Assembly (NCBI RefSeq): GCF_002093975.1
Contig: NZ_MSZZ01000052.1
Location: 1-64,000 of the forward strand
Length of the DNA stretch: 64,000 bases
Source: Thermoactinospora rubra
GTDB lineage: Bacteria > Actinomycetota > Actinomycetes > Streptosporangiales > Streptosporangiaceae
Direction of reading: 5' to 3'
Position 1 is the stretch's first letter. Every line of letters starts with the position of its first letter. The translations under genes and the position numbers were made by a program. Below the pieces are notes generated by a model, which saw only the letters and a program-made list of their open reading frames with translations, had not been told where the DNA came from and made no database searches. Positions 6,491-23,280 of this stretch are shown here, in pieces.

Positions 6491-6532
6491 GAGCGGGTGA
6501 CGGGAATCGAACCCGCGCTGTCAGCCTGGGGA
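6491..6532. repeat. tRNA-Gly 3'-half copy 1 (left chromosomal att)
   Basis: A 42-bp copy of the 3' half of the minus-strand tRNA-Gly(CCC), from the acceptor end through the T arm to the anticodon loop. Two positions differ from the intact gene (GCCTGGGGA against GCTTGGGAA). With the hairpin to its left it is probably the displaced end of the original tRNA. Confidence 0.85.
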
Positions 6533-6657
6533 GTCTTTCAAGATCACACGCTCTGAGCGGGGAAGACGCTGACCTGCGCGTATGCCGGTCGAATTACCGT
6601 GAGTTCCCCTGAGTTCCCGTAGATCGCTCTGCAAACGGGCACGCAACGGGCACGGCC
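6533..6657. repeat. element left arm, copy A
   Basis: This 125-bp stretch is about 93% identical by eye to 8341-8465, the same position in the large element. It ends with ACGGGCACGCAACGGGCACG, a direct repeat of ACGGGCACG. A related GGGCACGTAACGGGCACG spans the integrase stop at 23117-23134. These are candidate integrase arm-binding sites. Confidence 0.7.
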
Positions 6658-6744
6658 ATCAGCACCCACGTGCCTGTTACGCGCGGCACGAACCTCCTTC
6701 TCGGTACACCAGAGCCGACTATGGGTGAGGCATAGACTTCGAAT

Positions 6745-6957
6745 ATGAGCGCGATGCGTGAAGAACTGCATGCCCTGGTCGATCGACTTCCCGAGGACCG
6801 TGTGCTGCCAGTTCTCGCACTTGTCCGCGAGAGCCTGGAGACGGCGAGCCGACGTGAGCGGGCCCTGGCCACCATGGAGCGGATTCAGGAGCGCATGCGC
6901 GGCGTGAGCGGGGTGGACGAGGAACTTAACCGCCTCCGGGAAGGTGCGCGTGACTGA
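6745..6957 (+). CDS. antitoxin of a PIN-domain toxin-antitoxin pair
   Basis: A 70-residue protein, start ATG 6745 (ATG 6754 is an in-frame alternative). It is rich in charged helical sequence: MREELHALVDRLPEDRVLPV, then a basic stretch RRERALATMERIQERMRG. It overlaps the start of the PIN gene, the coupling expected of a VapB-like antitoxin. I see no classical AbrB or ribbon-helix-helix signature, so the DNA-binding type is unknown. The pair lies alone between two att copies. Confidence 0.7.
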   Translation: MSAMREELHALVDRLPEDRVLPVLALVRESLETASRRERALATMERIQERMRGVSGVDEELNRLREGARD

Positions 6958-7399
6958 CGCGTATGTCGTGGACACCGGCGTGTTCCTGCGCTGGTTCGTC
7001 GATCAGCCCGGCTTCGAGCACGCCCGCCAACTCCAAGACGACTTCTTGCATGACCGGATCAGACTGGAGACGGCGGACTTCGCACGGATCGAGGTAGCCG
7101 GAGTACTGCGAAAGAAGGGCTTGCTCGCGGGCCGGCTCACCGCAGAGGAGTTCATCGCGGCCGTCCGGATCATCGACGAGTTCGCGGTCCGGGTCCATCC
7201 CGTCGATGTCGACCGGTTGGAGCGAGCCGCCAGCCTAGCCGTACGGTTGACCTTGCGTATGTATGACGCGATCTTCGCGCAACTTGCGCTCGATCGAGAG
7301 ATTCCGCTGCTGACAACCGACGCAAAACTCCACCGGGCACTGCACGGCGTCGTCAAGACTGAACTTCTCCGTGGCGTGAGCCCCACCGATCAACTCTGA
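6944..7399 (+). CDS. PIN-domain ribonuclease toxin (VapC-like)
   Basis: A 151-residue protein if GTG 6944 is used; GTG 6950 is an alternative. The PIN signature is clear: YVVDTGVFLRWF supplies the first acid, a central ARIEVAGVLRKK the conserved glutamate, and MYDAIFAQLAL with LLTTDAKLH the C-terminal acids. Such toxins cut tRNA or rRNA in a metal-dependent way and are held in check by the upstream antitoxin. The overlap with 6745-6957 supports co-translation. The target RNA cannot be predicted here. Confidence 0.85.
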   Translation: MRVTDAYVVDTGVFLRWFVDQPGFEHARQLQDDFLHDRIRLETADFARIEVAGVLRKKGLLAGRLTAEEFIAAVRIIDEFAVRVHPVDVDRLERAASLAVRLTLRMYDAIFAQLALDREIPLLTTDAKLHRALHGVVKTELLRGVSPTDQL

Positions 7400-7430
7400 G
7401 CCGAGCGTCCACCGCTACCGATGCCTACGA

Positions 7431-7472
7431 GAGCGGGTGACGGGAATCGAACCCGCGCTGTCAGCTTGGGAA
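7431..7472. repeat. tRNA-Gly 3'-half copy 2
   Basis: A 42-bp copy identical to the 3' half of the intact tRNA-Gly(CCC) gene through the anticodon loop, diverging after GCTTGGGAA. It cannot encode a tRNA because the 5' half is absent. Confidence 0.87.
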
Positions 7473-7610
7473 CCGGCTACTGATCTTGACGTCTTGACCT
7501 GCAAAACCAGGGGACCAGGTCACGCCGGGTCGAGTGACCGTGAGTACCCCTGACTGACCTCTGCTGTCCGTCCGTTCTGGCACGGATCTGGCACATGGAT
7601 CATGACCGTT

Positions 7611-7979
7611 TCAGCGCAGTGGGAGCACCCGGACGCGGATACCCCCCTTGGTGAAAGCCGCGATCGCGCCTGTCTGAAGGTGCCGTTCGAGAACCTCGAG
7701 ATTAGCCAAGATGATGTTGACCAAGTCGGGTGGACGAAGCTCCACCAGCTCTCGCACGAGGATGACGGAGGGCTCAGTCGCGCGGGCATAGGCCAGGAGC
7801 GCGCCGAAGTCGGTGTCAGCGGAGATGATGACCCGACCGTCCGCAACGGCGAGCTCCATGATCGTGGTGTCGGGCGCGCTCGTCGCCTGGAGATCGCGCA
7901 CGTGCACCGCATTGTGACCAGCTTTGGTCAGCAGCTCGGCGACGCGGGGTGAGAGGTTCTCGTCGACCAGGAAGTTCAC
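7611..7979 (-). CDS. DUF5615 PIN-like toxin
   Basis: A 122-residue protein opening MNFLVDENLSPRVAELLTKA, the signature of DUF5615 (PIN-like) proteins. The DEN acids, the mid-protein VIISADTDFGALL and the basic tail RVRVLPLR fit the family. These are predicted toxin nucleases of two-gene modules with DUF433 antitoxins. Its GTG overlaps the stop of the DUF433 gene by 4 nt, so the two are translated together. Confidence 0.87.
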   Translation of the reverse strand: MNFLVDENLSPRVAELLTKAGHNAVHVRDLQATSAPDTTIMELAVADGRVIISADTDFGALLAYARATEPSVILVRELVELRPPDLVNIILANLEVLERHLQTGAIAAFTKGGIRVRVLPLR

Positions 7980-8206
7980 GCCGGCTCTCGAAGGCGGTAG
8001 AAGTGGACATTCGTCGACGCCGCTGCGTACTCGAGCGCCTGCTTGATGTCCTCACGCTCCAGGTCCGGGTAGTCCGCGAGGATCTCATCGAAGGACCACC
8101 CGCCGGCGACCAGCCGCACCACCGTCTCCACCGTGATACGCAACCCACGGATGGTGGGCTTGCCTTCAAGCTTGTCAGGCTCGATGGCGATCCGATCGAA
8201 GTTCAT
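7976..8206 (-). CDS. DUF433 antitoxin
   Basis: A 76-residue protein with the DUF433 core: GKPTIRGLRITVETVVRLVA, then GWSFDEILADYPDLEREDI, a compact winged-helix-type DNA-binding fold. A strong GGGAGGGAG site precedes ATG 8206. It is first in the operon with the DUF5615 toxin. It probably neutralises that toxin and represses the shared promoter. Confidence 0.87.
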   Translation of the reverse strand: MNFDRIAIEPDKLEGKPTIRGLRITVETVVRLVAGGWSFDEILADYPDLEREDIKQALEYAAASTNVHFYRLREPA

Positions 8207-8298
8207 GGCGTCTCCCTCCCCTCCTGATACTGCCAGGCTGGCAACGAGGAAGCGATCGAGATACAGGCCAGCCCATGATGAGGGGAACCCCGCAAGTG

Positions 8299-8340
8299 GA
8301 GCGGGTGACGGGAATCGAACCCGCGCTGTCAGCTTGGGAA
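8299..8340. repeat. tRNA-Gly 3'-half copy 3 (attL of the AICE)
   Basis: A 42-bp copy identical to the intact tRNA 3' half. It is followed by left-arm copy B at 8341-8465, which matches 6533-6657 closely. Confidence 0.87.
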
Positions 8341-8465
8341 GTCTTTCAAGATCACGCGCCCTGAGCTGGGAAGACGCTGACCTGGGCGTATGCCGGTCGA
8401 ATTACCATGAGTTCCCCTGAGTTCCCGTAGATCGCTCTGTAAACGGGCACGCAACGGGCACGACC
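8341..8465. repeat. element left arm, copy B
   Basis: About 93% identical by eye to 6533-6657 with no length change, ending in the doubled ACGGGCACG motif. Probably integrase/excisionase arm sites. Confidence 0.7.
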
Positions 8466-9489
8466 TTTCGCGTCTTCACGCACACCGCTCCCTGCCTGAT
8501 CGTCCCGTCGCCGTCGTCCCACACGTCAGTGGAGCGGGCCAGGGGCCGGGGGTGAAGGTGGAGCCCCCTACTGGAGGAACGACCTTCGCCCCCGGCCCCT
8601 GGTCTGCTCGGCTTGTCCTGGGCGACGGCGGCGGGACGATCAGGCTTCCGCCTCCGCCATCTACGGCCCTTCGCGCGCTTCGTGATCATCCTGGAGCCGG
8701 AGGCCCCCGCCGGAGGCATGAAGGACATCAGCCCGTGAGGACGGAGCGGCGCGGCTGGCGAAGTGCCGTGGGCGTCCGAAGGGCGAGCGAAGTGAGTCCG
8801 GTCTGCGCTGTGGCTGGTTTCCGTGCTGGGCGTCGCGGTCGCCGTGGTGTTGTGGGATCTGGTTCGTCTCGTGCCTGCCGCGCGGCCCGAGCACGGCGCA
8901 CGCGAGAACGGCCCCCAGGCCGCACGCGCAGCGTGCGGCCGAGCGCAGGGCCGCGCGGTGGCGGCGCGGAGCGCCGCCCTTGATCCCTACAAGAGCAATT
9001 CGGCAGTGATCCAGCAACGATCACCCTCACTCGCTGGACACATAGCACAACCACTAGATGAGCTCTCTGCGGGCAAGCTCAAGACATTTCCGGCACACTG
9101 CCACGCAGCCAAGGGATGCTGACACTGCGCACTCCTAAAGTAACTCAACGTGTTCAGGTCAGCGTGAATACATCATTAGAGACAGCCCCATTAGCAGGGG
9201 CGGCACACACGGAGCTGTGCTCACGACTGAAAAACGTGCGGGACGGGTACAACGTTCTCCGCAAGCCACTCGAAGACACCGATAGCCGCATGAGCCCCTA
9301 TCTGCTGACGATGCCCATGGACCAACCACGTATAGAACAACACAACCGACCAACCATAATAGGCTCACATTAGAAGGTACTTTCGAATGTAACAGGACAC
9401 TTTGTCGCTCCGATCTCTCCGTGTACGCCACATCAAGTGGCAGGAGTACGCTGATACCTGTCACACCCGACCATAGCCAAGGGCACCAG
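8466..9489. other. gene-free stretch with a long hairpin
   Basis: About 1 kb without a convincing gene. It holds the hairpin at 8539-8602, the repeat shared with 1160-1230 (8864-8932), and a shift to lower GC from about 8990. A short palindrome GCCAC-ATCAA-GTGGC at 9427-9441 lies upstream of the next gene and could be an operator. Confidence 0.45.
8539..8602. other. long inverted repeat (21-bp stem)
   Basis: The arms at 8539-8559 and 8582-8602 pair over 21 bp with a single G-U wobble (14 bp, wobble, 6 bp) around a 22-base loop. No T tract follows. It could be a structured RNA, a terminator or a replication/transfer site. The role is unknown. Confidence 0.55.
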
Positions 9490-12075
9490 ATGACGACTGC
9501 TCCAAAAACGGTAGGCGAGTTCCTCGCTAGCACAGGACAAGAGCGAGCCGAAGTCAAGGTTCGCCTTTCAAAGGAGCTCATCACTCTTCTCTCGGAGCAG
9601 CTCTATCAATCCCCCCTAAAGGCAATCGAAGAGCTGGTAGTTAATTCTTTTGATGCCGACGCAACAGAATGCCATGTTGTCGTGCCAACTATTAGCCCAG
9701 GGACGGAAATTGGCGGGCTTGATGTCATAGCAGTTTACGACAACGGCGTCGGCATGGATCAGAATGGCCTAACCGATCTATGGCGAGTGGGATCCTCAAC
9801 AAAGAGAAATGAAGTCATAAAGGCATTGCGCAAAAGGCGTCAAATAGGTAAGTTCGGCATCGGAAAGCTGGCAACCTATGCATTGGCCAACCGAATAACA
9901 TATCTGACCTCGGCAGGAGCAGGAGAAATTCTTGCAGTAACCTTGAGCTTTACGGACTTCAAATCAGATCCGGAGGGACCTGAATCCCCCGTGCTTCTCG
10001 ATGTTAGGGCACACACACGAGAATCAGTTCTGCAAGCCCCCACAGTGGTCAGAGCTCTACAAGCAGCCGAGCTCGACCCAGCCGCCGCCCTGGATCCTGC
10101 AGAAAGCTGGACGCTTGCCCTCTTGGAGGAGCTCAAAGACCGAGCGATTTCGCTTTCACCCAAGAAGCTTCTCTGGGTACTTCGTACGGCCATGCCACTT
10201 ACGGACGACTTCAAGCTATTTCTGAATGGCGATCGCGTTATTTCGTCTAAGGCCGATTACGAAAAGGTTGTGGAATTTACTCTAGGCGACCTCCCACCCG
10301 AGCGGATAGCCAGTCTAACGAGCCGAACGTCAATGGACTGGCGGGTAGAGACTCGGCCCGCACCGCAGCACTATGGGCCTAATGCCGAGGAACGCCGCGC
10401 GCTAGTGTCAGAACAGTTCGAAGAAGGCATCTCCGGGCACGTAATCGTCACTCGCCAAACTTTGTATCAAGGCAAGAGTGCAGACCTTACGCGATCGCAC
10501 GGTTTCTTCGTTAGAGTTCGTGGTCGCCTAGTAGATGAGGATGACCCACTATTTGGCGTTTCGCCGCGCTCTTATGAGACCTTCAACCGCTTCAAAGCAG
10601 ACATCGATGCAGATGATCTAGATGAAGACATTACGGCACCGCGAGAAAACGTAGGCGACAGTGATCGACGGCAAGTCTTCATCGAAGTTCTTGTTGAGGT
10701 TTTCAATGAAGCGAGACAGCGCTATCTGGAATGGGAAAAGACGCAGACGAAACCTCAGGAGTATAAGCGGGAGCAGGAGAGAAATTATGTCGCGCCACGG
10801 CTGGTGGAGCGACCGCTAGCTGATGTCCTCCTATCTTCAGAGACTGATGAGCACGCACCCGGAACGGACGCTGATGATGATTGGTTCTATCTAGAGCAGC
10901 CAAGCAAGGATAACGTCAAGGAGCTCGCCGCTAGCCTATACGATCTCGAAACCAGAGAACCGTACGCGTACCGGATGGAAGAGCTGGGCCGGGACGAAAG
11001 GATGGTTCGTTTCGAGCCCGCTCGACGCACTTTTGTACTAAACGCGAATCATCAACTCGTGCTTGCCTTCAAAGATTCGCCCCGAGCTCTCGACCTTCTA
11101 CACGACGTCGCTACGGCGGAAGCCTTGCTAGAGATATACCTACGTGAGGCTGGCGTTTCGCCCCACCTTATTGGCGATATCCTTGAACGTCGTGATGGGC
11201 TGTGGCGGAGCCTGGCGCAGGAGCAGATAACCTCCCCTCAAGCCATCGCCGACAACCTAAGACAGTCGATCGCTTCCGAACGCGATCTTGAGGTTGCCCT
11301 CATCGTTGCGGTGCGTGCTCTTGGCTTCGTAGCAAAGCACCTGGGTGGCTCGGAACATCCGGATGGCCTCGCCCGGTTGCGCGACTACCCCCAAGGAGAA
11401 CGTAAGATCACGCTGGAAGCAAAGTCGTCTGCTAGAGGCAAGTCCTCTCTAGGATCTCTAGATTTTGCGGGTCTAGCACAGCACGTAAAGGACAACAAGG
11501 CGTCGGGTTGCCTCCTCATAGCACCTGATTACCCAGGTGGTAGTAGAGGCGACAATGCCGCGGCGGCGAAGCGCGCAAAGGATCTGAGGATTAGCTGCTG
11601 GACTGTCGAGCAGCTGGCCCGCGTCGTAGAGGCCATGGATAAGCGCGACATAACGGCACGCCATATCCTAGACATCGTGCTATCAGCTTTTACTCCGGAA
11701 GAGGTAAGCGAAAAGGTCGATCAGCTACTTAACGATCCAAAGTACCCTCCGCGTGAGCTAGCGATTGCAATCGTCGCTGCTTTAAGAGAGCTTGAAACCT
11801 ATGGCCCAATGGATTTGCCTCGCAGCGTAGATATGATCTCCGTTGAACTCCGACGTGCCGGCGTCGATGCGCCTATCGCTGATATACGTACTGCGCTATC
11901 GGCACTTGTGGCTGCAAGCCATGGAGCAATTAGCTTTATCACGCCCGATCGGATTACTTTGAACACCTCACTAGAAGAGGTGGAACGCAGGGTAGCACTC
12001 TGGCTTCAGTCACCATCCAGCGCTCGACGGGCAAGCACCTTCCGGAAAGAACCTCGCACACCAGATGTATCCTGA
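9490..12075 (+). CDS. GHKL (MORC/MutL/Hsp90-like) ATPase fused to a PD-(D/E)XK nuclease domain
   Basis: An 861-residue protein from ATG 9490. The N-terminal GHKL fold shows the N box EELVVNSFDADA (~47-58), the ATP-lid motif DNGVGMD (~84-90) and the glycine motif GKFGIGK (~120). A long middle region follows. Near the C-terminus HPDG (D625) and LEAK (E643, K645) form a PD-(D/E)XK nuclease signature preceded by the usual ALIVAVRALGF helix. The last ~90 residues look like a winged helix. GC content is visibly lower than in the surrounding genes, which suggests transfer. With the adjacent methyltransferase it fits the class of restriction-modification loci with MutL/MORC-like ATPases described by comparative genomics. 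The activity is inferred. Confidence 0.8.
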   Translation: MTTAPKTVGEFLASTGQERAEVKVRLSKELITLLSEQLYQSPLKAIEELVVNSFDADATECHVVVPTISPGTEIGGLDVIAVYDNGVGMDQNGLTDLWRVGSSTKRNEVIKALRKRRQIGKFGIGKLATYALANRITYLTSAGAGEILAVTLSFTDFKSDPEGPESPVLLDVRAHTRESVLQAPTVVRALQAAELDPAAALDPAESWTLALLEELKDRAISLSPKKLLWVLRTAMPLTDDFKLFLNGDRVISSKADYEKVVEFTLGDLPPERIASLTSRTSMDWRVETRPAPQHYGPNAEERRALVSEQFEEGISGHVIVTRQTLYQGKSADLTRSHGFFVRVRGRLVDEDDPLFGVSPRSYETFNRFKADIDADDLDEDITAPRENVGDSDRRQVFIEVLVEVFNEARQRYLEWEKTQTKPQEYKREQERNYVAPRLVERPLADVLLSSETDEHAPGTDADDDWFYLEQPSKDNVKELAASLYDLETREPYAYRMEELGRDERMVRFEPARRTFVLNANHQLVLAFKDSPRALDLLHDVATAEALLEIYLREAGVSPHLIGDILERRDGLWRSLAQEQITSPQAIADNLRQSIASERDLEVALIVAVRALGFVAKHLGGSEHPDGLARLRDYPQGERKITLEAKSSARGKSSLGSLDFAGLAQHVKDNKASGCLLIAPDYPGGSRGDNAAAAKRAKDLRISCWTVEQLARVVEAMDKRDITARHILDIVLSAFTPEEVSEKVDQLLNDPKYPPRELAIAIVAALRELETYGPMDLPRSVDMISVELRRAGVDAPIADIRTALSALVAASHGAISFITPDRITLNTSLEEVERRVALWLQSPSSARRASTFRKEPRTPDVS

Positions 12076-12225
12076 GCTGCTGGCCTTTGTCTCCGAAGAG
12101 CCTTGAACTCCGTAGAGATTTGTAATGCCCGTACGACCGGTATCGGGTAGAGTAGTTGGCTTAAGGGTGAAACGTAGAGCCGCCCTCTATCGACGTCAAG
12201 CACGCAACTAGGATGGGAAGTCTCC

Positions 12226-13542
12226 GTGGTGTACGAGGCTCAGATGAAGCCGAAGCTGCTAGGACTACAGAGGAAGAGAGTCTCCAACGTTACGCACTAC
12301 CTTTTCAGGTATCCAGCAAAGTTTCATCCGCCTGTAGTCGACACTCTGCTTCAGCTGTACACCCAGCGCGGTGACATCGTTCTGGACCCTTTTGTGGGCT
12401 CTGGGACAACGCTCGTGGAGACGTCTATTTCCGGACGTGGTGGAGTCGGTCTGGATATCGACCCTGTTGCCGTGGCGGTGGCTCGCGCCAAGACGCGGAA
12501 ATATGACCTCAATGAGGTCAATAGTGTGGTTGCTCAACTTATTCACACCTTGGAGAGTATTGAGCGACCAGCGGAGGAATATGAGCATCGCCAATTTGTC
12601 GATCTCGATGAGGCTGAGTATGAGAAAGTAATCGCAAACGAAGGGCTGTGGGTTCCCGAGATACCGCGCCTTTTCCACTGGTTTCGCCGCTACGTAATTG
12701 TCGATCTTGCTCGACTTCTTCAGATAGTCCGCGAAGTCAACGCGAGCGAGAGAACTCGACTTTTTTTGGAGATAGTCTTCGCTTCTATCATACGAAACTC
12801 ATCAAATGCCGACCCCGTGCCGGTATCTGGACTCGAATACACTGCTCATATGCGGAGAAGGGATGCAGCAGGACGCCTTGTAAACCCTTTTGCTCTTTTC
12901 AGAGCCGCCCTCAAGAAGGCTCAGTCGGCCATAGCGGAATATGCTTCTCTTCTTCCTCTTGATGTAGAGGAGCCTGTGGTCATCCGTGGTGACGCAAAGC
13001 AGCTGCCAGCTGAAGCAATAGGGGAAGTTGATGCCGTGCTGACATCGCCGCCTTACCATAATGCTGTCGACTATTATCGTCGGCATCAGTTGGAAATGTT
13101 CTGGCTAGGGTATACCACGACAGCATCTGAGCGTCTCTCTCTGCTGCCTCACTATATTGGGAGGCCTCGCATCCCGATGAAGGATCCGCTACTAAGGGCG
13201 CCCTGGCAGTCAGGGCCTTTGGCAACTATGTGGGAGACGCGCATACGGAAGGAGTCGGCTCAGCGTGCTAATGATTTCCGCCACTATGTTCAGAGTATGA
13301 CATTGGCGTTCGAAGGAATAGCAAAGCTATGCAAAGCCGACTCACCTGTCCTAATGGTAGTGGGTCACTCTTCCTGGAATGGCGACAAGATTCCTACTGC
13401 CGATCTATTTGCCGAGATAGCACACGATTTCGCGCTTGAGGATATCTTCTTCTATCCTGTCAAAAATAGATACATGTCATACGCTAGGCGCAATCTGGCC
13501 AGCATCGATGAGGAGTATGTCCTCGTATTTAGGCGTATGTAG
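12226..13542 (+). CDS. DNA methyltransferase (N4-cytosine/N6-adenine type)
   Basis: A 438-residue protein; GTG 12226 has GGGAAG about 6 bases upstream. The S-adenosylmethionine motif DPFVGSGTT is at residues 54-62 and the catalytic TSPPY at 273-277, so the binding motif comes first. An early FRYPAKFHPP motif is shared with other amino-methyltransferases of this arrangement. TSPPY favours N4-cytosine, but adenine is possible. It lies 150 bp after the GHKL-nuclease gene and shares its low GC, so it probably protects host DNA from that protein or supplies the mark it reads. No separate specificity subunit is visible. Confidence 0.85.
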   Translation: MVYEAQMKPKLLGLQRKRVSNVTHYLFRYPAKFHPPVVDTLLQLYTQRGDIVLDPFVGSGTTLVETSISGRGGVGLDIDPVAVAVARAKTRKYDLNEVNSVVAQLIHTLESIERPAEEYEHRQFVDLDEAEYEKVIANEGLWVPEIPRLFHWFRRYVIVDLARLLQIVREVNASERTRLFLEIVFASIIRNSSNADPVPVSGLEYTAHMRRRDAAGRLVNPFALFRAALKKAQSAIAEYASLLPLDVEEPVVIRGDAKQLPAEAIGEVDAVLTSPPYHNAVDYYRRHQLEMFWLGYTTTASERLSLLPHYIGRPRIPMKDPLLRAPWQSGPLATMWETRIRKESAQRANDFRHYVQSMTLAFEGIAKLCKADSPVLMVVGHSSWNGDKIPTADLFAEIAHDFALEDIFFYPVKNRYMSYARRNLASIDEEYVLVFRRM

Positions 13543-13764
13543 CGCGTGGTCTGTCGGACACATATGGGTAGTTCTCACTCGTGGGTGGTTCTCACTCGTT
13601 CGTGAGGGGCGCTGGCACTACAGCTCAGAGAGCCACAGCACGGCCAGGCGACCGGCCTTACCGTGCCACGACACCGTGCAGGTGATGCGACCTAGAGGAT
13701 GTAAGGATCTTACTTTTGAGGTAGCTGCTGAGGAGAGTCTCAGGAGGGTGGTAGAACGCTCGGT
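13543..13764. other. short gap with a 17-bp tandem repeat
   Basis: GGGTAGTTCTCACTCGT (13566-13582) is followed at once by GGGTGGTTCTCACTCGT (13583-13599). CTCAC/GTGAG can form a small hairpin at 13591-13606. It marks the change from low-GC cargo to the high-GC AICE backbone. Confidence 0.55.
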
Positions 13765-14607
13765 GTGGACGAGCGACGAGATCGCCTGCGGACGCTGGGC
13801 GAACTGCTGCGGCGGCTACGCAAGCACGCAGGACTGACCGGCAAGGACCTGGCACAGCGCGCTCACGTCGCGCAACCCACGATCTCCCGCATAGAGACGG
13901 GCCAGTTGCTCCCGACACCCGAGACCGTCGAGCGGCTGGTCGCAGCGCTTTGTCTCGACGAAGCGGCCCGTACGGAGCTGGACGGTCTTCTCGTGCGGCT
14001 TCGGGAAGAGGTCTCTCGACTGAAGGGTGGGCTTGCTGGTCGCGAGGAGGCTAATGCCGCAAGGGTCCGAGCGGCGCGAGAGTTCACCGTGTTCCAGTCC
14101 GCGATGATCCCGGCACTGCTACAGACCGGGGAGTATGCCCGTCTGGCGCTGGCTGTTGGACGCGATGTCGACGAGGGGGATGCGGCTAAGGCTGCAGCCG
14201 TCCGAGTGGAGGCGCAAGCCGTACTGTTTGAGGACTCGCGCCGGTTCGCGTTCGTGCTGACCGAGGGGGCAGTGCGGACGTGGCCAGGCTCTCCCAAGCT
14301 CATGGTGGCGCAACTCGATCGCCTGGCTCAGGTGGCAACGCTGCCGCATGTGAGGCTTGGCGTCGTGCCGTGGTCGGTGCAAGCGCCGGCCTTTCCGCTG
14401 CACGGCTTCACGATCTACGACGGCTCGGTCAGTGTGGTCGAGAGCCTGACAGGTGATCTCACGCTGACCGGGCCGGATGAGCTTGCCACCCATCTGGAGA
14501 TCTTCGAGGCGTTCGCCGGGGTGGCGGTGTATGGCGATGAGTTGCGTGATCTTCTTGGCCGGATCGCTACCGATTTCCGGGAGCTGAGCAGGCGACTGGA
14601 AGAGTGA
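13765..14607 (+). CDS. XRE/DUF5753 transcriptional regulator
   Basis: A 280-residue protein from GTG 13765; GGAGGG lies 16 bases upstream, so the start is not certain. The N-terminal Cro/C1 helix-turn-helix covers ~8-62 (GKDLAQRAHVAQPTISRIET). The remainder is a DUF5753 domain with FQSAMIPALLQTGEYAR. Such proteins are frequent in actinomycetes and usually pair with small or HATPase genes. This one heads the AICE control block beside a HATPase gene and may control maintenance or transfer. Confidence 0.9.
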   Translation: MDERRDRLRTLGELLRRLRKHAGLTGKDLAQRAHVAQPTISRIETGQLLPTPETVERLVAALCLDEAARTELDGLLVRLREEVSRLKGGLAGREEANAARVRAAREFTVFQSAMIPALLQTGEYARLALAVGRDVDEGDAAKAAAVRVEAQAVLFEDSRRFAFVLTEGAVRTWPGSPKLMVAQLDRLAQVATLPHVRLGVVPWSVQAPAFPLHGFTIYDGSVSVVESLTGDLTLTGPDELATHLEIFEAFAGVAVYGDELRDLLGRIATDFRELSRRLEE

Positions 14608-14670
14608 CGCATTTATGCGTCGAATAGCTTGAGCGATAGCGCGGCTCGCTCATACGCTGACGGCAGGCTG

Positions 14671-14686
14671 TATAGTCCCCTAGACA
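14671..14686 (+). promoter_or_regulatory. -10 box with CCCCTAGACA operator
   Basis: TATAGT at 14671-14676 runs directly into CCCCTAGACA, 12 bases from ATG 14699. The same element recurs at 17409, 17456 and, inverted, 17489. Its position over the probable start point suggests repression. Confidence 0.55.
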
Positions 14687-14698
14687 TCGGAGCTGCCC

Positions 14699-15106
14699 AT
14701 GCCGTCCTGGCGCTTCTCCCGCTACTTCCTCGGCTCCGCCCCCTCCGTCCGGGAAGCCCGCCGCTTCGTCGCCGCCCTCCTCCCCGGCTCGCCCCTCGCC
14801 CACGACGCCGAGCTGATCGTGAGCGAGCTGGCCACCAACGCGATCCGGCACTCTGCCAGCGGACGCTTCGACGGCCGGTTCGTCGTCACCGTGCAGTCCC
14901 ATCCCGATCAGCTCTGGCTCGGCGTCCTCGACGAGGGAAGCCCCTGCTCCCCCAAGGCACTCCGCCCCTGCCCCGAAGGCGAGAACGGGCGCGGCCTGCT
15001 CCTCGTCTCCTCCCTCGCCGATGACTGGGGCGTCTGGGGCGACCACCGTGGGCGGACCGTCTGGGCGGTGCTCCGCCGGCCGGTCCGCAAGGAAGCGGCA
15101 TGCTGA
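14699..15106 (+). CDS. ATP-binding protein (HATPase, RsbW/anti-sigma-like)
   Basis: A 135-residue protein with the HATPase_c_2 features of RsbW-type kinases: SELATNAIRHSASG (N box), VLDEGSP (ATP-lid acid) and GRGLLLVSSLADDWGV. It follows the XRE/DUF5753 gene, a pairing common in actinomycetes. It starts just behind a CCCCTAGACA operator. It may act as a kinase or anti-factor on a partner in the element, possibly opposed by the PP2C at 16368. The partner is unknown. Confidence 0.85.
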   Translation: MPSWRFSRYFLGSAPSVREARRFVAALLPGSPLAHDAELIVSELATNAIRHSASGRFDGRFVVTVQSHPDQLWLGVLDEGSPCSPKALRPCPEGENGRGLLLVSSLADDWGVWGDHRGRTVWAVLRRPVRKEAAC

Positions 15107-15378
15107 GGCCCGGCTGCCTGGCGCCACATCCGCCGGCGTCGCAGGCCGACTGCATGCGGCTGGAGTGGCTGGATCCCCGGCTCGACGGACGGTGCCGTGT
15201 CCGGGACTGGACCTGCGACTGCCGCGCCGTCTACTACGAGCTGTGCGAATCCGGCGGCCTCGCCTTCGTACGGCGCGTCGTCCAAGGCGATGACCGCATC
15301 GTCGCCGAGACTCATCGCGTACGGATCGCCGAAGCGCATGCGATCTGGAAGGCCATTCTCAGCGGGCAAGCCAGATGA
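15100..15378 (+). CDS. hypothetical small AICE protein
   Basis: A 92-residue protein. ATG 15100 overlaps the end of the HATPase gene by 7 nt, indicating coupled translation. It has four cysteines (two in RVRDWTCDCRAVYYELCESG) and reads as a small mixed alpha/beta protein. I do not recognise the family. Its place suggests a role with the HATPase. Confidence 0.6.
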   Translation: MLRPGCLAPHPPASQADCMRLEWLDPRLDGRCRVRDWTCDCRAVYYELCESGGLAFVRRVVQGDDRIVAETHRVRIAEAHAIWKAILSGQAR

Positions 15379-15477
15379 GCCCACGAGGGGTCCCTCGACG
15401 GCGTTCGGCGATTCGGGCGGTCAGTTTCCTAACCGGCGAACCGATCAAAATTGGCCCTTCCTGGGGAAGAGACGACA

Positions 15478-15508
15478 TACTGTCTAGAGCCCTAGACTCT
15501 CTAGGAGC
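15478..15508 (+). promoter_or_regulatory. CTGTCTAG/CCCTAGAC operator cluster
   Basis: ACTGTCTAGAG, CCCTAGACTC and CTCTAGGAG are packed within 31 bp just upstream of the gene starting at 15525. They are half-sites of the element found at 14671 and 17409-17503. Probable autoregulation by an element-encoded factor. Confidence 0.5.
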
Positions 15509-15524
15509 CTTGCGAGGGGGACCC

Positions 15525-16364
15525 ATGCCGCCGAGTGACGTTGAGCGCATCGCCGCCATCAAAGACCCGTTCCAACTGCTGCGGGTCGCCACCGAACGCC
15601 TCAACGCCGCCCAGCAAGAGGTCACCGAACTGGCCCGGCTCCGCCGCCGCGTGATCCAGGAACTTCACGCCCAGGGTCTCTCCTATGCCCAGATCGCCAA
15701 GGAAGCCGGCCTCACCCGGGGCCGCATCCACCAGATCCGGCACACCGGCCCGGCCCCCGAGGGCGCCTTCCTCGGCACCGGCACCATCACCCTGGCCACT
15801 CCCCTCAAGCAGGAAGCCGTCAACGCCCGCCCCGTGGTCGCCATGGAAGACGTCACCGCCGCCAAGCGCCTGGAAGACCTCGCCCGCGGCTTCGACCTGG
15901 CCATGGAACTGGAACACGTCCCCCTCGGCGGCCAGATCGACGTCAACCGCCCCAACCTCATCGTCATCTGCGGCCCCAAGCTCTCCCCGGTCATGGCCCA
16001 GCTGTATGAATCCGACCCCGTCCTGGAGTGGGTCAAGGACGACGCCTGGACGCTGCGCGACCGCCGTACCGGCCAGATCTACCGCTCCGGCTCCGACAGC
16101 CAACCGCCGCGCCCGGTCGACTACGCCTATCTCGGCCGTCTCCCCCGCCCGGACGACAAGGGCACCCTGCTGGTGTTCACCGGCATCCACCCTCAAGGCA
16201 CCCTCGGCGTGGTGCAGCTGCTCCAGACCGAGATCGCCACCCTGTGGGGGCAAGTCGGCGACAAGCGCTTCTCCACCGTCGTCGGCGTGGAGTACGACCC
16301 GCAAACCGGGGAACCGGTGAGGTCTGAGCTGGCCAGTCCGCTGTACCGCCACGAGGAGGACTAA
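15525..16364 (+). CDS. helix-turn-helix regulatory protein of the AICE (sigma-like HTH)
   Basis: A 279-residue protein from ATG 15525, behind GAGGGGG. The frame extends upstream, but that part crosses the operator cluster. Residues ~25-75 contain LRRRVIQELHAQGLSYAQIA followed by KEAGLTRGRIHQIRHTG, a helix-turn-helix close to sigma region 4. The C-terminal ~180 residues include LIVICGPKLSPVMAQLYES, GRLPRPDDKGTLLVFTGIHP and TVVGVEYDPQTGEPV, a conserved-looking ligand or regulatory domain that I cannot name. It precedes the PP2C gene by 3 bp and probably forms a switch with it. Confidence 0.7.
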   Translation: MPPSDVERIAAIKDPFQLLRVATERLNAAQQEVTELARLRRRVIQELHAQGLSYAQIAKEAGLTRGRIHQIRHTGPAPEGAFLGTGTITLATPLKQEAVNARPVVAMEDVTAAKRLEDLARGFDLAMELEHVPLGGQIDVNRPNLIVICGPKLSPVMAQLYESDPVLEWVKDDAWTLRDRRTGQIYRSGSDSQPPRPVDYAYLGRLPRPDDKGTLLVFTGIHPQGTLGVVQLLQTEIATLWGQVGDKRFSTVVGVEYDPQTGEPVRSELASPLYRHEED

Positions 16365-16367
16365 AGC

Positions 16368-17186
16368 GTGCGGGTCACCTTCGCCACCCAAGCGGCCCCC
16401 GGCCGCCCGAACGAGGACTTCGTCGCCGCCACCCCGGACGCCGTCGTGCTGCTGGACGGCTCCGGCACTCCCCCGGGCTCCGAGTCGGGCTGCTCGCACG
16501 GCGTCGCCTGGTACGCCCGCACGCTCGGCTCCACCCTGCTCGCCGCCATGACGCAAAGCGCCGGCCCCCTGCCCGAGCTGCTGGCCGAGGGCATTAAGAC
16601 CGTCGCCTCCCTACATGACGGCACCTGCGACCTGACCCATCCCGGCTCCCCCTCGGCCACCGTGATCATGCTCCGCCGTACCGCTGACGCCCTGGACTGG
16701 CTGGTCTTGGCCGACTCGGTCCTGATCCTGGACATGGCCGGTACGGCAGAGCCGACCGTGATCGTCGATGACCGGGAAGCCCTGGTCGGGCGGCAATACC
16801 GGGCCGCCATGGACGCCCTCGCCTCCGGCAGCCCCGAACACGTCGCCGCGCACCGCGACTACGTCGAAATCCTGCGCGCCTACCGCAACCGCGACGGCGG
16901 CTTCTGGGTCGCCGCCACCGATCCCCTGGCCGCCGAGCAGGCGCTCACCGGCAACCTGCCCCTCGACCAGGTGAAGGCGGCAGCACTGCTGAGCGACGGC
17001 GCGTCTCGTCCGGTCGATCGCTTCGCGCTGATGTCCTGGCGCGACCTTCTCGACGTGCTGGCCGGTCAGGGTCCCGAGGAGCTGATCCATCAGGTACGGC
17101 AGGCCGAGAACTCCGACCCGCACGGCTCACGCTGGCCGCGTGGCAAGGCGTTCGACGATGCGACGGCGGCGTACGTCCGGCTCTGA
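16368..17186 (+). CDS. PP2C-family protein phosphatase-like protein
   Basis: A 272-residue protein from GTG 16368 with GAGGAGGA 7 bases upstream. PP2C-like signatures are present: PNEDFVAATPDAVVLLDGSG (first metal acids), AAALLSDGASR and a terminal FDDATAAYVRL with the last metal acid. It would dephosphorylate a Ser/Thr protein in the cytoplasm. It sits 3 bp after the HTH gene and in the same element as an RsbW-like kinase, a partner-switch-like set. The classical phosphatase motif order is partly diverged, so activity is probable but unproven. Confidence 0.75.
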   Translation: MRVTFATQAAPGRPNEDFVAATPDAVVLLDGSGTPPGSESGCSHGVAWYARTLGSTLLAAMTQSAGPLPELLAEGIKTVASLHDGTCDLTHPGSPSATVIMLRRTADALDWLVLADSVLILDMAGTAEPTVIVDDREALVGRQYRAAMDALASGSPEHVAAHRDYVEILRAYRNRDGGFWVAATDPLAAEQALTGNLPLDQVKAAALLSDGASRPVDRFALMSWRDLLDVLAGQGPEELIHQVRQAENSDPHGSRWPRGKAFDDATAAYVRL

Positions 17187-17191
17187 CCTGC

Positions 17192-17389
17192 TCACCACTT
17201 GCCGGAGCGGCGCTCCAGCTTGGTCAGGAGGATGCCCACGATGGCACCCAGCACCGGCAGCACCAGCAAGACGAGCGCAACGAAGATCAAATCCCAGTCG
17301 GACGCGAGCATGTCCCGCCCAGCGGCATGCAGCACGAAGCATCCCCCGTAGGTAATCACCCCGACCCTAGTCACAAGGCGCTCCAACAA
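17192..17389 (-). CDS. small membrane protein
   Basis: A 65-residue protein if TTG 17389 is used; a shorter ATG start at MLASDWDLIF is possible. The core DLIFVALVLLVLPVLGAIVG is one or two membrane segments, followed by a basic tail LTKLERRSGKW. It is divergent from the operon at 17525, with the operator cluster between. AICEs commonly encode small Spd-type membrane proteins for mycelial spread. That role is a guess. Confidence 0.5.
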   Translation of the reverse strand: MLERLVTRVGVITYGGCFVLHAAGRDMLASDWDLIFVALVLLVLPVLGAIVGILLTKLERRSGKW

Positions 17390-17408
17390 GATAGACCCGC
17401 CATGTTTA

Positions 17409-17503
17409 CCCCCCTAGACAGTTCGGGGATACTCAGGTTATCGTCCTCTGCATAGCCCCCTAGACAGAACCCACAGCGGAACGGCCGCAACTGTCTAGGG
17501 GGA
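17409..17503. promoter_or_regulatory. three CCCCCTAGACAG operators at a divergent promoter
   Basis: CCCCCCTAGACAGTT (17409-17423) and CCCCCTAGACAGAAC (17456-17470) face AACTGTCTAGGGGGA (17489-17503). CATAG just before the second copy mirrors TATAGT at 14671. The cluster lies between the small membrane gene and the Pra/transfer/replication operon, so it is probably the main on/off point of the element. Confidence 0.7.
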
Positions 17504-17524
17504 TAGACGAAGGAGTGGTACACC

Positions 17525-17950
17525 ATGGCTCTCCAGGGACCCATCCCTGTGACGTTCGAGATGGTCTTCCCGCACGGCTGCTACATCGTCGGGGAGGTCG
17601 AGCCGGTCAAGGACTTCGACGCCTCGACCGGCGGCCGGTTCGTCCAGGCCCGCGACAAGCAGACCGGTGAACTCGTCTGGCAGGTCTCAGTCATGGACGG
17701 CGACCCGACGCTCAAGGCCGCGCAGAAGACCGTCGCGGTGAAGATCCTCAGCCCGACCCAGCCGGTTCCTCCGCCGCCCATGCCGGGGCTGCCGTTCACG
17801 CCGGTGGAGTTCGGCCACATCACGGTCACGCCGTACGTCAACGGCAGTGGTCGGCTGGCCTACTCCATCAAGGTCCGCGAGATGCGGGCGCCCCGGGCGA
17901 CGGCCAACGCCGGCAAGCCCGCTCCGGCGAGCGCGAAGGACGCGGCGTGA
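17525..17950 (+). CDS. Pra-like activator of replication, integration and excision
   Basis: A 141-residue protein opening MALQGPIPVTFEMVFPHGCY, with VGEVEPVKDFD, RDKQTGELVWQVSV and a proline-rich PVPPPPMPGLPF hinge. This pattern matches actinobacterial proteins usually labelled plasmid replication, integration and excision activator (Pra). In pSAM2, Pra switches on the rep-xis-int genes. Here it is first in the operon that ends with those genes and lies directly behind the operators. AAGGAG precedes the ATG. The assignment rests on recalled family resemblance. Confidence 0.68.
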   Translation: MALQGPIPVTFEMVFPHGCYIVGEVEPVKDFDASTGGRFVQARDKQTGELVWQVSVMDGDPTLKAAQKTVAVKILSPTQPVPPPPMPGLPFTPVEFGHITVTPYVNGSGRLAYSIKVREMRAPRATANAGKPAPASAKDAA

Positions 17951-18210
17951 TGGGGCGGCGGCAGGCTCGGCCGACGAGCATCATCACCCTCAACACCGCC
18001 TCCGGCGCGACGGTGGAGAACCACGCCTACCCGCTGCGCACGCCGATCCTGGCGCTGGCCTTCGGGCTGGTCCAGGTGCAGATCGCCACCTCGGCGTCGG
18101 ATCACGTCACGGCGGCCGAGGTGGAGTTCGCCCGCCAGCTGGCCCAGCAAGCGCAGGACTTCGCCCGGTGCGTGGAGCGCATCCACCGGCGTGGGGTGAT
18201 CGCGGCATGA
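17947..18210 (+). CDS. hypothetical AICE protein
   Basis: An 87-residue protein. Its ATG overlaps the Pra-like stop (ATGA) and its own stop overlaps the next ATG, so it is firmly in the operon. It has a helical middle LALAFGLVQVQIATSASD and an amphipathic C-terminus QLAQQAQDFARCVERIHRRG. No family recognised. Small genes at this place in AICEs are often transfer- or spread-related. Confidence 0.65.
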   Translation: MMGRRQARPTSIITLNTASGATVENHAYPLRTPILALAFGLVQVQIATSASDHVTAAEVEFARQLAQQAQDFARCVERIHRRGVIAA

Positions 18211-18515
18211 GCGATCGCGGCCCATACACCTACGTCACGGTGACCATGCAGCCCGACGAGGCTCCTTGTCTCGTCGTCTCCTTCTACACGGCGGATCTGC
18301 ATATTCGCGCCGGAGTGATCGACGGGCGACGGCCGTACTTCACGGTCAGCTCCGACGAGGCGGACGTGTGGATCTCCACCACCGGAGGTGGACAGGTCAC
18401 CGGCGCCGACCTGCGTACCGCACGCCTGATCTTCGACGCCGCCGCTCGCTACCTGGCCGACTGCGAGCGGCTGCACATCCACCAGTCGGCCCAGGACGCC
18501 ACGGATGCGGCCTGA
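18207..18515 (+). CDS. hypothetical AICE protein
   Basis: A 102-residue protein from ATG 18207 (ATGA overlap with the previous stop). It reads GPYTYVTVTMQPDEAPCLVV and later DVWISTTGGGQVTGADLRTA, mainly beta strands then a helix RLIFDAAARYLADCERL. I do not recognise it. The unbroken chain of 4-nt overlaps shows it is translated with its neighbours. Confidence 0.62.
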   Translation: MSDRGPYTYVTVTMQPDEAPCLVVSFYTADLHIRAGVIDGRRPYFTVSSDEADVWISTTGGGQVTGADLRTARLIFDAAARYLADCERLHIHQSAQDATDAA

Positions 18516-18524
18516 GGTGCAAGC

Positions 18525-18558
18525 GGGGCCGCCAGAAGCGGCAACTTCCGGCGGCCCC
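18525..18558. terminator. hairpin between the small genes and traB
   Basis: GGGGCCGCC (18525-18533) pairs with GGCGGCCCC (18550-18558), with an inner GAAG/CTTC. Only a short T-rich TTGATCTT follows. It could attenuate transcription into the translocase gene. Confidence 0.5.
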
Positions 18559-18603
18559 TTGATCTTCCTCAACACGCGAATGTCTGGAAGGACACCAAGC
18601 CTA

Positions 18604-20025
18604 ATGTTCAAGAAGATGCCCGGCGACGAGCCGCACCGCATCGTCTCGACCACCCCCGATACGGCGGTCGTGTTCAAACCGGCCGTCGTGCAGACACCCG
18701 CGATCATCACGCTCATCGTCTTCGCCTGGCGCGCCATGGTGAGCCTCGTCCGTACCGTGTGGCGGCATCCCGTGGCCGCCCTGGTCGCGGTCACGCCCTG
18801 CGTCCTGACCGTCCTGTACGGCTGGCGCGTCACGCTCATCGTGGCCACGATCGTCCTTGTCGGCCTGACCGGCTGGGGCCTCCTCGACCGGCCATCCTTC
18901 GCCGCGCTGGTGGGCCGGCGGTTGCTGGCCTGGTGGCGGCTGGTCTGGGTGTACCGGCGGCACTGGCAACCCGTCATGATCGTCTCCGGGCTCGGCAAGC
19001 ACATCCGGGGCCGCGACTACCTGCCCAAGCTCGGCACGGTCACCTGCACCTCATGGGCGGACATCGTCACCGTCCGCATGCTCAACGGCCAGGCGGTCAA
19101 GGACTGGGCCGACCGGACCGACAACCTCGCCCGCGGCTTCAGCGCGGAATCCTGCCGTGTCGCCGTGATCAAGGGCGGACGGCTGCGGCTCACCTTCCCC
19201 CGGCGTGACCCGCTGGCCACGCCCCTCCCGGCTCTGCCCCTCCCCGAGGCGGCCTCGGTGGGGCCGGTCGAGATCGGCAAGCAGGAAGACGGCTCGCCGT
19301 GGCGGCTGAAGGTCCACGGCACGCATGTCCTGGTGGCCGGGGCGACCGGGGCGGGCAAGGGCTCGATCCTGTGGTCGACCATCCGCGGCCTGCTCCCCGC
19401 GATGCGGGCGGGCCTGGTCGAGCTGTGGGCGCTCGATCCCAAGCTGATGGAGCTGTCCTACGGCCGCGCCCTGTTCGGCTCCCGGTATGCGGCCGACCCC
19501 GGCGACTGCGCCGATCTGCTCGACGACGCGGTGAAGGTCATGCAGGCGCGTGCCGCCCGGTTCGCCGGCCACCAGCGCAACCACACCCCCACGATCGAAG
19601 ATCCGTTCGTCCTGATCATCGTCGATGAGGTGGCGTTCCTGACCGCCTACCAACCCGACAAGCAGCTCCGGCACCGCATCTCCGCCGCCCTGGCGACGCT
19701 CACCACCCAGGGCCGGGCGGTCGGGATCGGCGTCATGGCCGCCTTGCAGGACCCGCGCAAGGAGGTCATGAACATCCGCAACCTGTTCCCCGACAAGATC
19801 GCCCTCCGGCTGGATGAGTCCGAACAGGTCGACATGGTCCTCGGCGACGGCGCACGGGATCGCGGGGCGCTGGCCGACCACATCTCACCGGTTCCCGAGC
19901 TGGGCGCCGGCGTCGGTTACGTCCGGCTGGAGACGAGTCCTGACCCGGTGCGGGTCCGCGCGGCCTACGTCTCCGACGAGGACATCCGCGCCATGGTCGC
20001 AGAGTTCGGCGGTGAGACCCGATGA
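18604..20025 (+). CDS. FtsK/SpoIIIE-type DNA translocase (TraB-like)
   Basis: A 473-residue protein from ATG 18604, behind GGAAGGA. Two N-terminal membrane segments lie near residues ~40-110 (AALVAVTPCVLTVLYGW, LIVATIVLVGLTGWGLL). The FtsK motor follows, with Walker A GATGAGKGS, LWALDPKLMEL and Walker B VLIIVDEVAFL. AICEs move double-stranded DNA between hyphae with a single FtsK-like hexamer of this kind, anchored in the membrane. It precedes the replication genes, which start at overlapping codons. Size and layout fit TraB/TraSA proteins. Confidence 0.88.
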   Translation: MFKKMPGDEPHRIVSTTPDTAVVFKPAVVQTPAIITLIVFAWRAMVSLVRTVWRHPVAALVAVTPCVLTVLYGWRVTLIVATIVLVGLTGWGLLDRPSFAALVGRRLLAWWRLVWVYRRHWQPVMIVSGLGKHIRGRDYLPKLGTVTCTSWADIVTVRMLNGQAVKDWADRTDNLARGFSAESCRVAVIKGGRLRLTFPRRDPLATPLPALPLPEAASVGPVEIGKQEDGSPWRLKVHGTHVLVAGATGAGKGSILWSTIRGLLPAMRAGLVELWALDPKLMELSYGRALFGSRYAADPGDCADLLDDAVKVMQARAARFAGHQRNHTPTIEDPFVLIIVDEVAFLTAYQPDKQLRHRISAALATLTTQGRAVGIGVMAALQDPRKEVMNIRNLFPDKIALRLDESEQVDMVLGDGARDRGALADHISPVPELGAGVGYVRLETSPDPVRVRAAYVSDEDIRAMVAEFGGETR

Positions 20026-20177
20026 CACTGGCTCACTTCCTGGACAACCTGCGCTGCGCCGACTGCGGCGCGCTCAACGTCTTGTGGCTCGACCCGGTCC
20101 GCGCGCTGGTCGAGTGCCGCGAGTGCGGGGCCTCCGCACTCACCGTCCCCGACACCGACGACGGGAGGACCGCATGA
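20022..20177 (+). CDS. 51-residue zinc-ribbon protein
   Basis: A short gene between the translocase and the initiator. ATG 20022 overlaps the translocase stop and its own stop overlaps ATG 20174 of the initiator. The protein has two CxxC knuckles (RCADCG and ECRECG) about 18 residues apart, a compact zinc ribbon. It might bind DNA or the initiator. The exact overlaps on both sides support it as real. Confidence 0.7.
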   Translation: MTLAHFLDNLRCADCGALNVLWLDPVRALVECRECGASALTVPDTDDGRTA

Positions 20178-21781: not shown

Positions 21782-22002
21782 GCAATACGGCTAAGCGACC
21801 GGCCGACCGCCTCCTGACGGTGGCCGAAGTCGCCGAACGGCTCGGCACAACCGAGCGATTCCCTCGGCGCCTCATAGAGGAACGCCGGATCACCTTCGTC
21901 CGTCTGGGGCGCAAGGTCCGCATTCCCGAATCCGCACTCAACGACTTCATCGCGGCGGGGCTCGTTCACCCGATCAACACTCGTCCCGGGAGAGCGGCAT
22001 GA
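21778..22002 (+). CDS. xis: excisionase (helix-turn-helix)
   Basis: A 74-residue MerR-like excisionase: LLTVAEVAERLGTTERF, then ERRITFVRLGRKVRIPESAL, the classic winged-helix Xis core. GGGAGAG precedes it, and it overlaps the initiator and integrase genes by 4 nt each. It would bend the att arms and direct Int towards excision. An atypical RF replaces the usual RY/RW near the recognition helix. Confidence 0.9.
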   Translation: MSNTAKRPADRLLTVAEVAERLGTTERFPRRLIEERRITFVRLGRKVRIPESALNDFIAAGLVHPINTRPGRAA

Positions 22003-23126: not shown

Positions 23127-23166
23127 CGGGCACGGAAGATCGAAAACGCATCCGGAAAGATCGAAC

Positions 23167-23199
23167 GCCAGGTCGGGAATCCATCCCTGACCTGGCTTT
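23167..23199. terminator. terminator between int and tRNA-Gly
   Basis: GCCAGGTC pairs with GACCTGGC around a shorter GGGA/TCCC stem, followed by TTTT on the plus strand. It can stop int transcription, and tRNA transcription from the other side. Confidence 0.75.
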
Positions 23200-23208
23200 T
23201 CATAGTGA

Positions 23209-23250
23209 GAGCGGGTGACGGGAATCGAACCCGCGCTGTCAGCTTGGGAA
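23209..23250. repeat. tRNA-Gly 3'-half copy 4 (attR, inside the intact tRNA)
   Basis: The 42-bp identity block shared with 6491, 7431 and 8299. Identity ends after the anticodon loop (GCTTGGGAA), so crossover lies between the acceptor end and that point. Confidence 0.87.
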
Positions 23251-23280
23251 GCTGATGTTCTGCCATTGAACTACACCCGC
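23210..23280 (-). tRNA. tRNA-Gly (anticodon CCC), attachment gene of the island
   Basis: The minus strand folds as a cloverleaf: acceptor GCGGGTG/CACCCGC, D arm GTAGTTCAATGGCAGAAC, anticodon stem TCAGC/GCTGA with loop TTCCCAA, and T arm GCGGGTTCGATTCCCGT. The loop gives anticodon CCC. CCA is not encoded. Its 3' half comes from the integrated element, and the 5' half is original chromosome. Confidence 0.95.

Follow-up and report, generated by a model that had tools for sequence, protein, structure and literature searches.

Proteins that join a GHKL ATPase to a nuclease and act in restriction or defence are already known, in the BbrUII/HgiDII restriction enzyme family and in VcSduA of Vibrio. 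M.HgiDII is a characterised C5-methylcytosine (5mC) methyltransferase of GTCGAC and M.BbrUII has also been characterised, according to the available part of PMC5867850; the available part of PMC4618763 does not mention BbrUII. VcSduA is a GHKL-PD-(D/E)xK protein, and the passage of PMC12137116 that describes it reports loss of anti-phage activity upon mutation of either the ATPase or the nuclease site. The excerpt consulted of Iyer et al. 2008 (PMC2292703) places the MORC and paraMORC1-5 GHKL ATPases in restriction operons, assigns paraMORC3 a C-terminal nuclease of restriction endonuclease fold, proposes DNA looping, and links a superfamily II helicase to about 70% of MORC neighbourhoods. Here we describe a gene pair from Thermoactinospora rubra, found in a stretch of 64,000 nucleotides (contig NZ_MSZZ01000052.1, positions 1 to 64,000; the window). 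It encodes a GHKL ATPase fused to a Mrr-like nuclease (P0001) and an amino-methyltransferase (P0002). The pair is probably an uncharacterised kind of two-gene restriction-modification system, and the P0001 family appears to fall outside each of the named relatives tested. The features of the pair are as follows.

9490 to 12075, plus strand: P0001, GHKL ATPase fused to a Mrr-like nuclease, predicted restriction subunit, 861 residues
9490 to 9999, plus strand: GHKL (Bergerat) ATP-binding domain, residues 1-170, with N-box E48/N52/D55, D84xG86 and G120xxGxGK126
10000 to 10767, plus strand: S5-like transducer region (named by analogy), residues 171-426, with K254, GFFVRVRGRLV and R385
10768 to 11259, plus strand: middle region, candidate DNA-recognition or hinge region, residues 427-590, no Pfam match
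11260 to 11649, plus strand: Mrr-like PD-(D/E)XK nuclease, residues 591-720, with E601, D625, E643 and K645
11650 to 12072, plus strand: variable C-terminal tail, residues 721-861
12226 to 13542, plus strand: P0002, amino-methyltransferase (N4-cytosine or N6-adenine), predicted modification subunit, 437 residues
13042 to 13056, plus strand: TSPPY catalytic motif of P0002 (sequence motif)

The P0001 frame is open from the ATG at 9490 to the stop at 12075. The mechanically called open reading frame reaches back to a GTG at 9421, and the start at 9490 is favoured by the starts of homologues. Pfam HATPase_c_3 matches residues 43-159 (E 9.6e-17, 61.7 bits against a cut-off of 25) and is matched in all 18 members of the family alignment. 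With its N-box, DxGxG and GxxGxGK motifs, P0001 is a member of the GHKL ATPase superfamily. The ATP-site residues E48, N52, D55, G86, G120, G123, G125 and K126 are invariant in 18/18 members; D84 is retained in 17 and G88 in 15. Identity to P0001 over the whole protein is 57% for L025 and 25-31% for the remaining 16 of the 18-member set. The invariance of eight ATP-site residues, despite 25-31% identity in 16 of the 17 others, argues for nucleotide use. K254, R346 and R385 of the S5-like region are also invariant in 18/18. The middle region is 57% identical to P0001 in L025, 48% in L017 and 15-30% in the other members compared, and the C-terminal tail is 9-34% identical to that of members with an aligned tail. 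Hsp90 N-terminal domains were matched by the whole-family profile among the best 60 of 163 solved-structure matches. The Type II restriction endonuclease models of PADLOC matched the GHKL part alone in P0001 and some part of 16 of the 18 members; its MzaB models matched six members and its Tiamat-type TmtA models five.

The nuclease domain has the motif E...D...(D/E)xK. Position 601 is E in 17 of the 18 members and Q in one, position 625 is D in 15 and E in three, and at position 643, 17 members have E or D and L037, broken at this point, has R. The lysine of position 645 is present in every one of the 17 members with a residue there. The 17 members intact in this region thus follow the pattern E601...D625...(E/D)643-A-K645, with the exceptions given for 601 and 625. 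An 11-member profile of residues 575-725 aligned with a two-sequence profile of L021 and L024 (hhalign 99.3%, E 4.3e-20), which indicates that the domain is homologous to that of L021-L024, Mrr_cat-type proteins of the same genus. Mrr_cat was found in three of these four proteins (above the cut-off in L021, not in L024) and GHKL in none, unlike P0001. They are proteins of 600-780 residues in four congeners, two of them with a weak HTH_20 match. Within the family, Mrr_cat was matched weakly by 2/18 members (best E 0.0083), P0001 not among them. The motif together with the profile similarity would place the domain, as Mrr-like, in the PD-(D/E)XK superfamily. Comparison of the nuclease profile with solved structures gave no convincing match; the best, HindIII at E 0.045, is too weak for use, as is a match of P0001 to FokI at E 0.046. 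A C-terminal domain common with the L021-type proteins was also considered, as profile A1 spans the tail, and was rejected because a comparison with a tail-only profile gave 0.2%, which is not significant.

P0002 has the AdoMet (S-adenosylmethionine) motif DPFVGSGTT followed by TSPPY, and this order identifies it as an amino-methyltransferase with N4-methylcytosine or N6-methyladenine as its expected product. It scores 58.4 bits against Pfam N6_N4_Mtase (cut-off 26.7) and matches the PADLOC Type II methyltransferase models, with MTase_II down to E 4e-32; TSPPY is present in all three partner methyltransferases aligned. Thus the parts proposed in a first-pass annotation of the window, namely a GHKL ATPase in an 861-residue protein, a nuclease motif at D625, E643 and K645 and a neighbouring TSPPY methyltransferase, are borne out by the Pfam matches, by the residues at those positions and their retention across the alignment, and by the methyltransferase motifs.

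The best-scoring named family for P0001 is BbrUII/HgiDII (NCBIfam NF050001), with a homologous GHKL and S5 module (hhalign 99.6%, E 7e-24, 332 columns, about residues 18-400). P0001 scores only 67.8 bits against NF050001, for a cut-off of 550, over residues 34-426, whereas L097 and L100 match this model end to end, also below the cut-off. The P0001-family nuclease profile gave no alignment with the C-terminal part of five BbrUII/HgiDII relatives (hhalign 0.5%). Membership of BbrUII/HgiDII was therefore rejected. Two of the relatives, L077 and L078, have a C-terminal nuclease-like motif recognised by eye, GRIDI...IIELK, and L077 has a weak PDDEXK_4 match (E 0.033). L097 and L100 adjoin annotated cytosine methyltransferases and L078 adjoins one recognised by eye, so that the partner of the BbrUII/HgiDII type is a C5-methyltransferase and that of P0001 an amino-methyltransferase. 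Because the GHKL part aligns and the nuclease does not, the architecture suggests that a common motor has been combined with different nucleases.

VcSduA and paraMORC3 (GHKL-containing Shedu, type I-D) have the same single-chain plan, a GHKL ATPase followed by a PD-(D/E)xK nuclease, and the E-D-ExK motif of the P0001 family is as described for paraMORC3 in the text available. However, DUF4263, the mark of Shedu, was matched in none of the 18 members at E 0.1, and membership of this group was rejected. In addition, the passage on VcSduA in PMC12137116 names no methyltransferase, whereas most members of the P0001 family have one as a partner. Prokaryotic MORC and paraMORC proteins resemble the P0001 family in having a GHKL and S5-type ATPase in a restriction-modification setting, and the S5 region of the family has the G...R spacing of the MORC signature. 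This signature, GhXhhpXXRhl, is complete in 0/18 members, each having six or seven of the eight constrained positions (P0001 six), and MORC membership was therefore rejected. A further difference is that no third gene recurs beside the 27 loci of the P0001 family (neighbours within 6 kb). The specific link to MORC in the first-pass annotation is therefore not supported, BbrUII/HgiDII being the best-scoring named family, and its remark that few, if any, such ATPases have been characterised overlooks the BbrUII/HgiDII restriction enzymes and VcSduA, the tests of which are described in the passage of PMC12137116 cited above. Three plasmid GHKL proteins (L098, L099 and L101) have a second, histidine-kinase-type HATPase domain at the C-terminus, with methyltransferase genes near L099 and L101; they resemble the two-component-like, paraMORC-linked systems to which the title of PMC8011034 refers.

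A scan of contigs of 84,980 species, seeded with a profile, found at least 52 loci, 19 of which score above 230 bits to the family hidden Markov model (HMM); the contig scan with P0001 as single query gave no match. We took as the family at least 27 loci: the window, L016-L020, these 19 and two found later, with L026/L027 and L039/L046 as near copies. They come from Actinomycetota, Bacillota, Chloroflexota, Planctomycetota, Acidobacteriota, Nitrospirota, Pseudomonadota, Rhodothermota, archaea and others; many are metagenome-assembled genomes, and phyla are given as labelled, with assignments unchecked. Among 54 genomes of the genus, its own included, a full-length match was found in its own only, and 27 others match the GHKL or the nuclease part alone. 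At E 1e-15, its own genome counted, 2/297 genomes at the family level and 4/396 at the phylum level have matches, and a profile search at E 1e-60 found 3/394 at the class level, again with its own. Phage records gave one GHKL-only match among 50,697, and viral contigs one weak match, also GHKL only. We found no description of a GHKL-Mrr nuclease paired with an amino-methyltransferase in the literature searched, which comprised titles and the openings of abstracts and mostly excluded subscription journals.

An amino-methyltransferase gene adjoins the ATPase-nuclease gene in 24 of the 27 loci, a figure given without a matched rate for unrelated GHKL genes. The adjoining methyltransferase scores above 100 bits to the HMM of the window type in 22/27; three of these 22 built the HMM, and that of L040 covers the second half only. 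The partner of L025 is an amino-methyltransferase with the motif order SPPY then FMGTG, and that of L030 is a short N6_N4_Mtase protein. When neighbours within 6 kb were clustered (all-against-all blastp, single linkage), one methyltransferase cluster was present in 23/27 loci, L025 included, and the next cluster in five. The order of the pair varies (methyltransferase downstream, upstream or divergent), yet the pairing is kept. By the mechanically chosen starts, 12 co-directional members have between -107 and +53 bp separating the two genes; the window has 150 bp, L026, where the methyltransferase comes first, 2 bp, and the divergent L017 138 bp. L020 was considered as a partner swap to a 5mC methyltransferase and rejected, as that gene adjoins a NaeI-like endonuclease gene; because the ATPase gene of L020 is cut by the contig end, its partner cannot be told.

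The two proteins also co-diverge. The distance matrices of nuclease and methyltransferase correlate over 15 pairs with r 0.742, and 0/2000 permutations were as high. These are 15 of the 22 loci with a window-type methyltransferase. Of all the loci that have a methyltransferase, the comparison omits the near copies L027 and L046, the broken or partial L029, L037 and L040, L025 and L030, whose methyltransferase is of another kind or partial, and the later finds L123 and L124. The starred groups of the two trees are mutually compatible, though phyla are mixed; L026 has a long branch in both, and long branches meet in the nuclease tree. Co-divergence and compatible trees with mixed phyla are as predicted by joint transfer of a functional pair. 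Adjacent, co-inherited endonuclease and methyltransferase genes are what marks a Type II restriction-modification system, and the pair as predicted has this arrangement. The restriction-modification reading of the first-pass annotation is upheld by this recurring pairing across phyla and by the co-divergence.

We consider it fairly probable that the pair is a self-contained mobile restriction-modification system with an ATP-controlled, methylation-gated enzyme and a MutL-like clamp step. The methyltransferase would mark a specific host sequence at a base amino group, and the 861-residue protein would work as a dimer. ATP binding would shut the GHKL domains around DNA, as in MutL and Hsp90; closure, relayed through the S5-like and middle regions, would license two Mrr-like nuclease domains, and these would cut DNA without the methyl mark. 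That the protein dimerises and its clamp closes, that it depends on ATP and cleaves DNA, that both proteins recognise one and the same site, and that phages or plasmids are restricted is proposed by analogy with the families named. We favour this reading because the amino-methyltransferase is adjacent in 24/27 loci, co-diverges with P0001 and stays paired despite varying order; because the ATP-site residues (18/18) and the nuclease lysine (17/17) are kept and the nuclease is similar to Mrr_cat-bearing proteins; because a named restriction enzyme family contains homologous GHKL modules and PADLOC Type II endonuclease models are matched; and because the analogous VcSduA no longer defends when its ATPase or its nuclease is mutated (PMC12137116, passage cited). 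Several points weigh on the other side. The nuclease fold of P0001 is a prediction from sequence, and the Pfam search of P0001 returned no nuclease family above cut-off. Expression and activity of the pair are predicted from the genes alone, and a consensus promoter scan of 9000-13800 gave no promoter-like sites with 2.7 expected by chance, a result that says little. No ATP requirement for BbrUII/HgiDII enzymes was found in the partial texts consulted. Two full-length members, L016 and L019, have no detected adjacent methyltransferase (in L016 an N6_N4_Mtase gene lies about 2.9 kb away), so some family members may act alone.

Other explanations fit parts of these data. The pair could be an ordinary Type II system in which the GHKL domain is a relic with a structural or DNA-binding role and Mg2+ suffices for cleavage, as perhaps in HgiDII-type enzymes. 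This would suit two genes without a recurring helicase or other third gene, and a GHKL module homologous to that of enzymes which NCBIfam names simply restriction enzymes. We think it unlikely, since eight ATP-site residues are kept in 18/18 members (D84 in 17, G88 in 15) despite 25-31% identity in 16 of the 17 others, and since VcSduA needs its ATPase glutamate (PMC12137116, same passage). That P0001 acts alone as a phage-sensing effector in the manner of Shedu/VcSduA, the methyltransferase having another role such as separate modification or self-protection, would account for the overall plan common with VcSduA as described and for L016 and L019, but it is improbable in view of a methyltransferase in 24/27 loci and the co-divergence of both proteins.

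Mrr attacks methylated DNA, and the similarity of the nuclease domain to Mrr_cat proteins would allow a modification-dependent (Type IV) nuclease directed at methylated DNA of foreign origin, the methyltransferase being an unrelated passenger. The linkage and co-divergence with a methyltransferase make this very improbable; the host would then be open to attack by a nuclease of its own. Least credible of all is decayed cargo with no present function in the host; atypical composition, the remnants of other insertions adjoining the element and the apparently interrupted relatives L025, L029 and L037 speak for it, but both window frames are intact and have their catalytic residues.

The pair is carried by an actinomycete integrative and conjugative element (AICE) of 14.95 kb (8299-23251), with identical 43-bp ends at tRNA-Gly and the following parts.

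8299 to 8341, plus strand: left attachment repeat, 43 bp identical to 23209-23251
23209 to 23251, minus strand: right attachment repeat of 43 bp, inside tRNA-Gly (23209-23280)
18505 to 23126, plus strand: backbone, by Pfam an FtsK-type transfer protein (18505-20025), RepSA (19814-21781) and integrase (21999-23126)
9009 to 17510, no strand: probable variable cargo slot of the AICE family, occupied here by the pair, clearest against L114

A tyrosine integrase, a RepSA-type initiator, an FtsK-type transfer protein and tRNA attachment repeats together make the element an AICE. Stretches from four congeners contain related elements with the same attachment core, and an intact tRNA-Gly was found in two of these stretches. 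All four have the integrase end (21751-23250) in common with the window; most of 17511-23250 recurs in L113 and L114, and a segment near 8879-9008 in L112, L114 and L115. In L114 the left end to 9008 and the backbone from 17525 are conserved with different genes in between; L113 and L114 carry, for example, T5orf172/DUF4041 genes in the slot. Against a fully variable slot, 13831-14862 is common to L112 at 71%. The G+C content at third codon positions (GC3) is 0.53 in both genes of the pair versus 0.73-0.92 in eight other AICE genes. Because congener slots hold other genes and GC3 differs from the rest of the element, the pair looks like separable cargo. The AICE cargo status and the GC lower than that of the host element, both noted in the first-pass annotation, agree with these data. 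Its suggestion of separate capture is strengthened, as blastn of 9490-13542 against the fetched stretches of the four congeners gave no match and the L017 pair, from another genus of the family (nuclease 47-49% identical), also has low GC3 (0.52 and 0.51; locus GC 64%).

A hairpin of about 150 nucleotides (8494-8645; DNA folding of 8480-8730, z-score -7.9) lies near the left end of the AICE. A copy of the hairpin at 88% and of the 8880-9008 segment at 94% is on contig C72 of the same genome, with further copies in L114 and L115; the hairpin may represent an origin, a transfer element or a repeat element of the backbone. The tRNA-Gly attachment core occurs twice more, at 6491 and 7431 (within 6491-8298), which suggests tandem accretion of older insertions; a PIN-domain gene (6944-7399) lies between these two copies. 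The 99 bp at 239-337 match the 3' part of the AICE integrase gene at 86% identity and are probably a remnant of another integrase gene.

Beyond the single ATP-controlled pair, we raise more tentatively the possibility of a helicase-free, ATP-dependent two-gene restriction class. In it a MutL/Hsp90-like GHKL clamp would close, slide or loop between unmodified sites before the Mrr-like nuclease cuts, and the class would have spread between phyla as nuclease and methyltransferase modules were swapped around a shared GHKL and S5 motor. Module exchange is indicated by the GHKL module common with BbrUII/HgiDII being joined to a different nuclease and a different methylation chemistry. If true, the ATP-driven step of restriction would be supplied by a GHKL clamp and not by a helicase translocase. 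Restriction loci repeatedly contain GHKL ATPases of the MutL/Hsp90/MORC type, and we found nothing that settles the role of the ATPase in a restriction enzyme; the P0001 family is a minimal two-gene case, with ATPase and nuclease sites intact, for asking what the ATPase does. The pair also bears on actinomycete genetics, being mobile cargo that could hinder the uptake of DNA.

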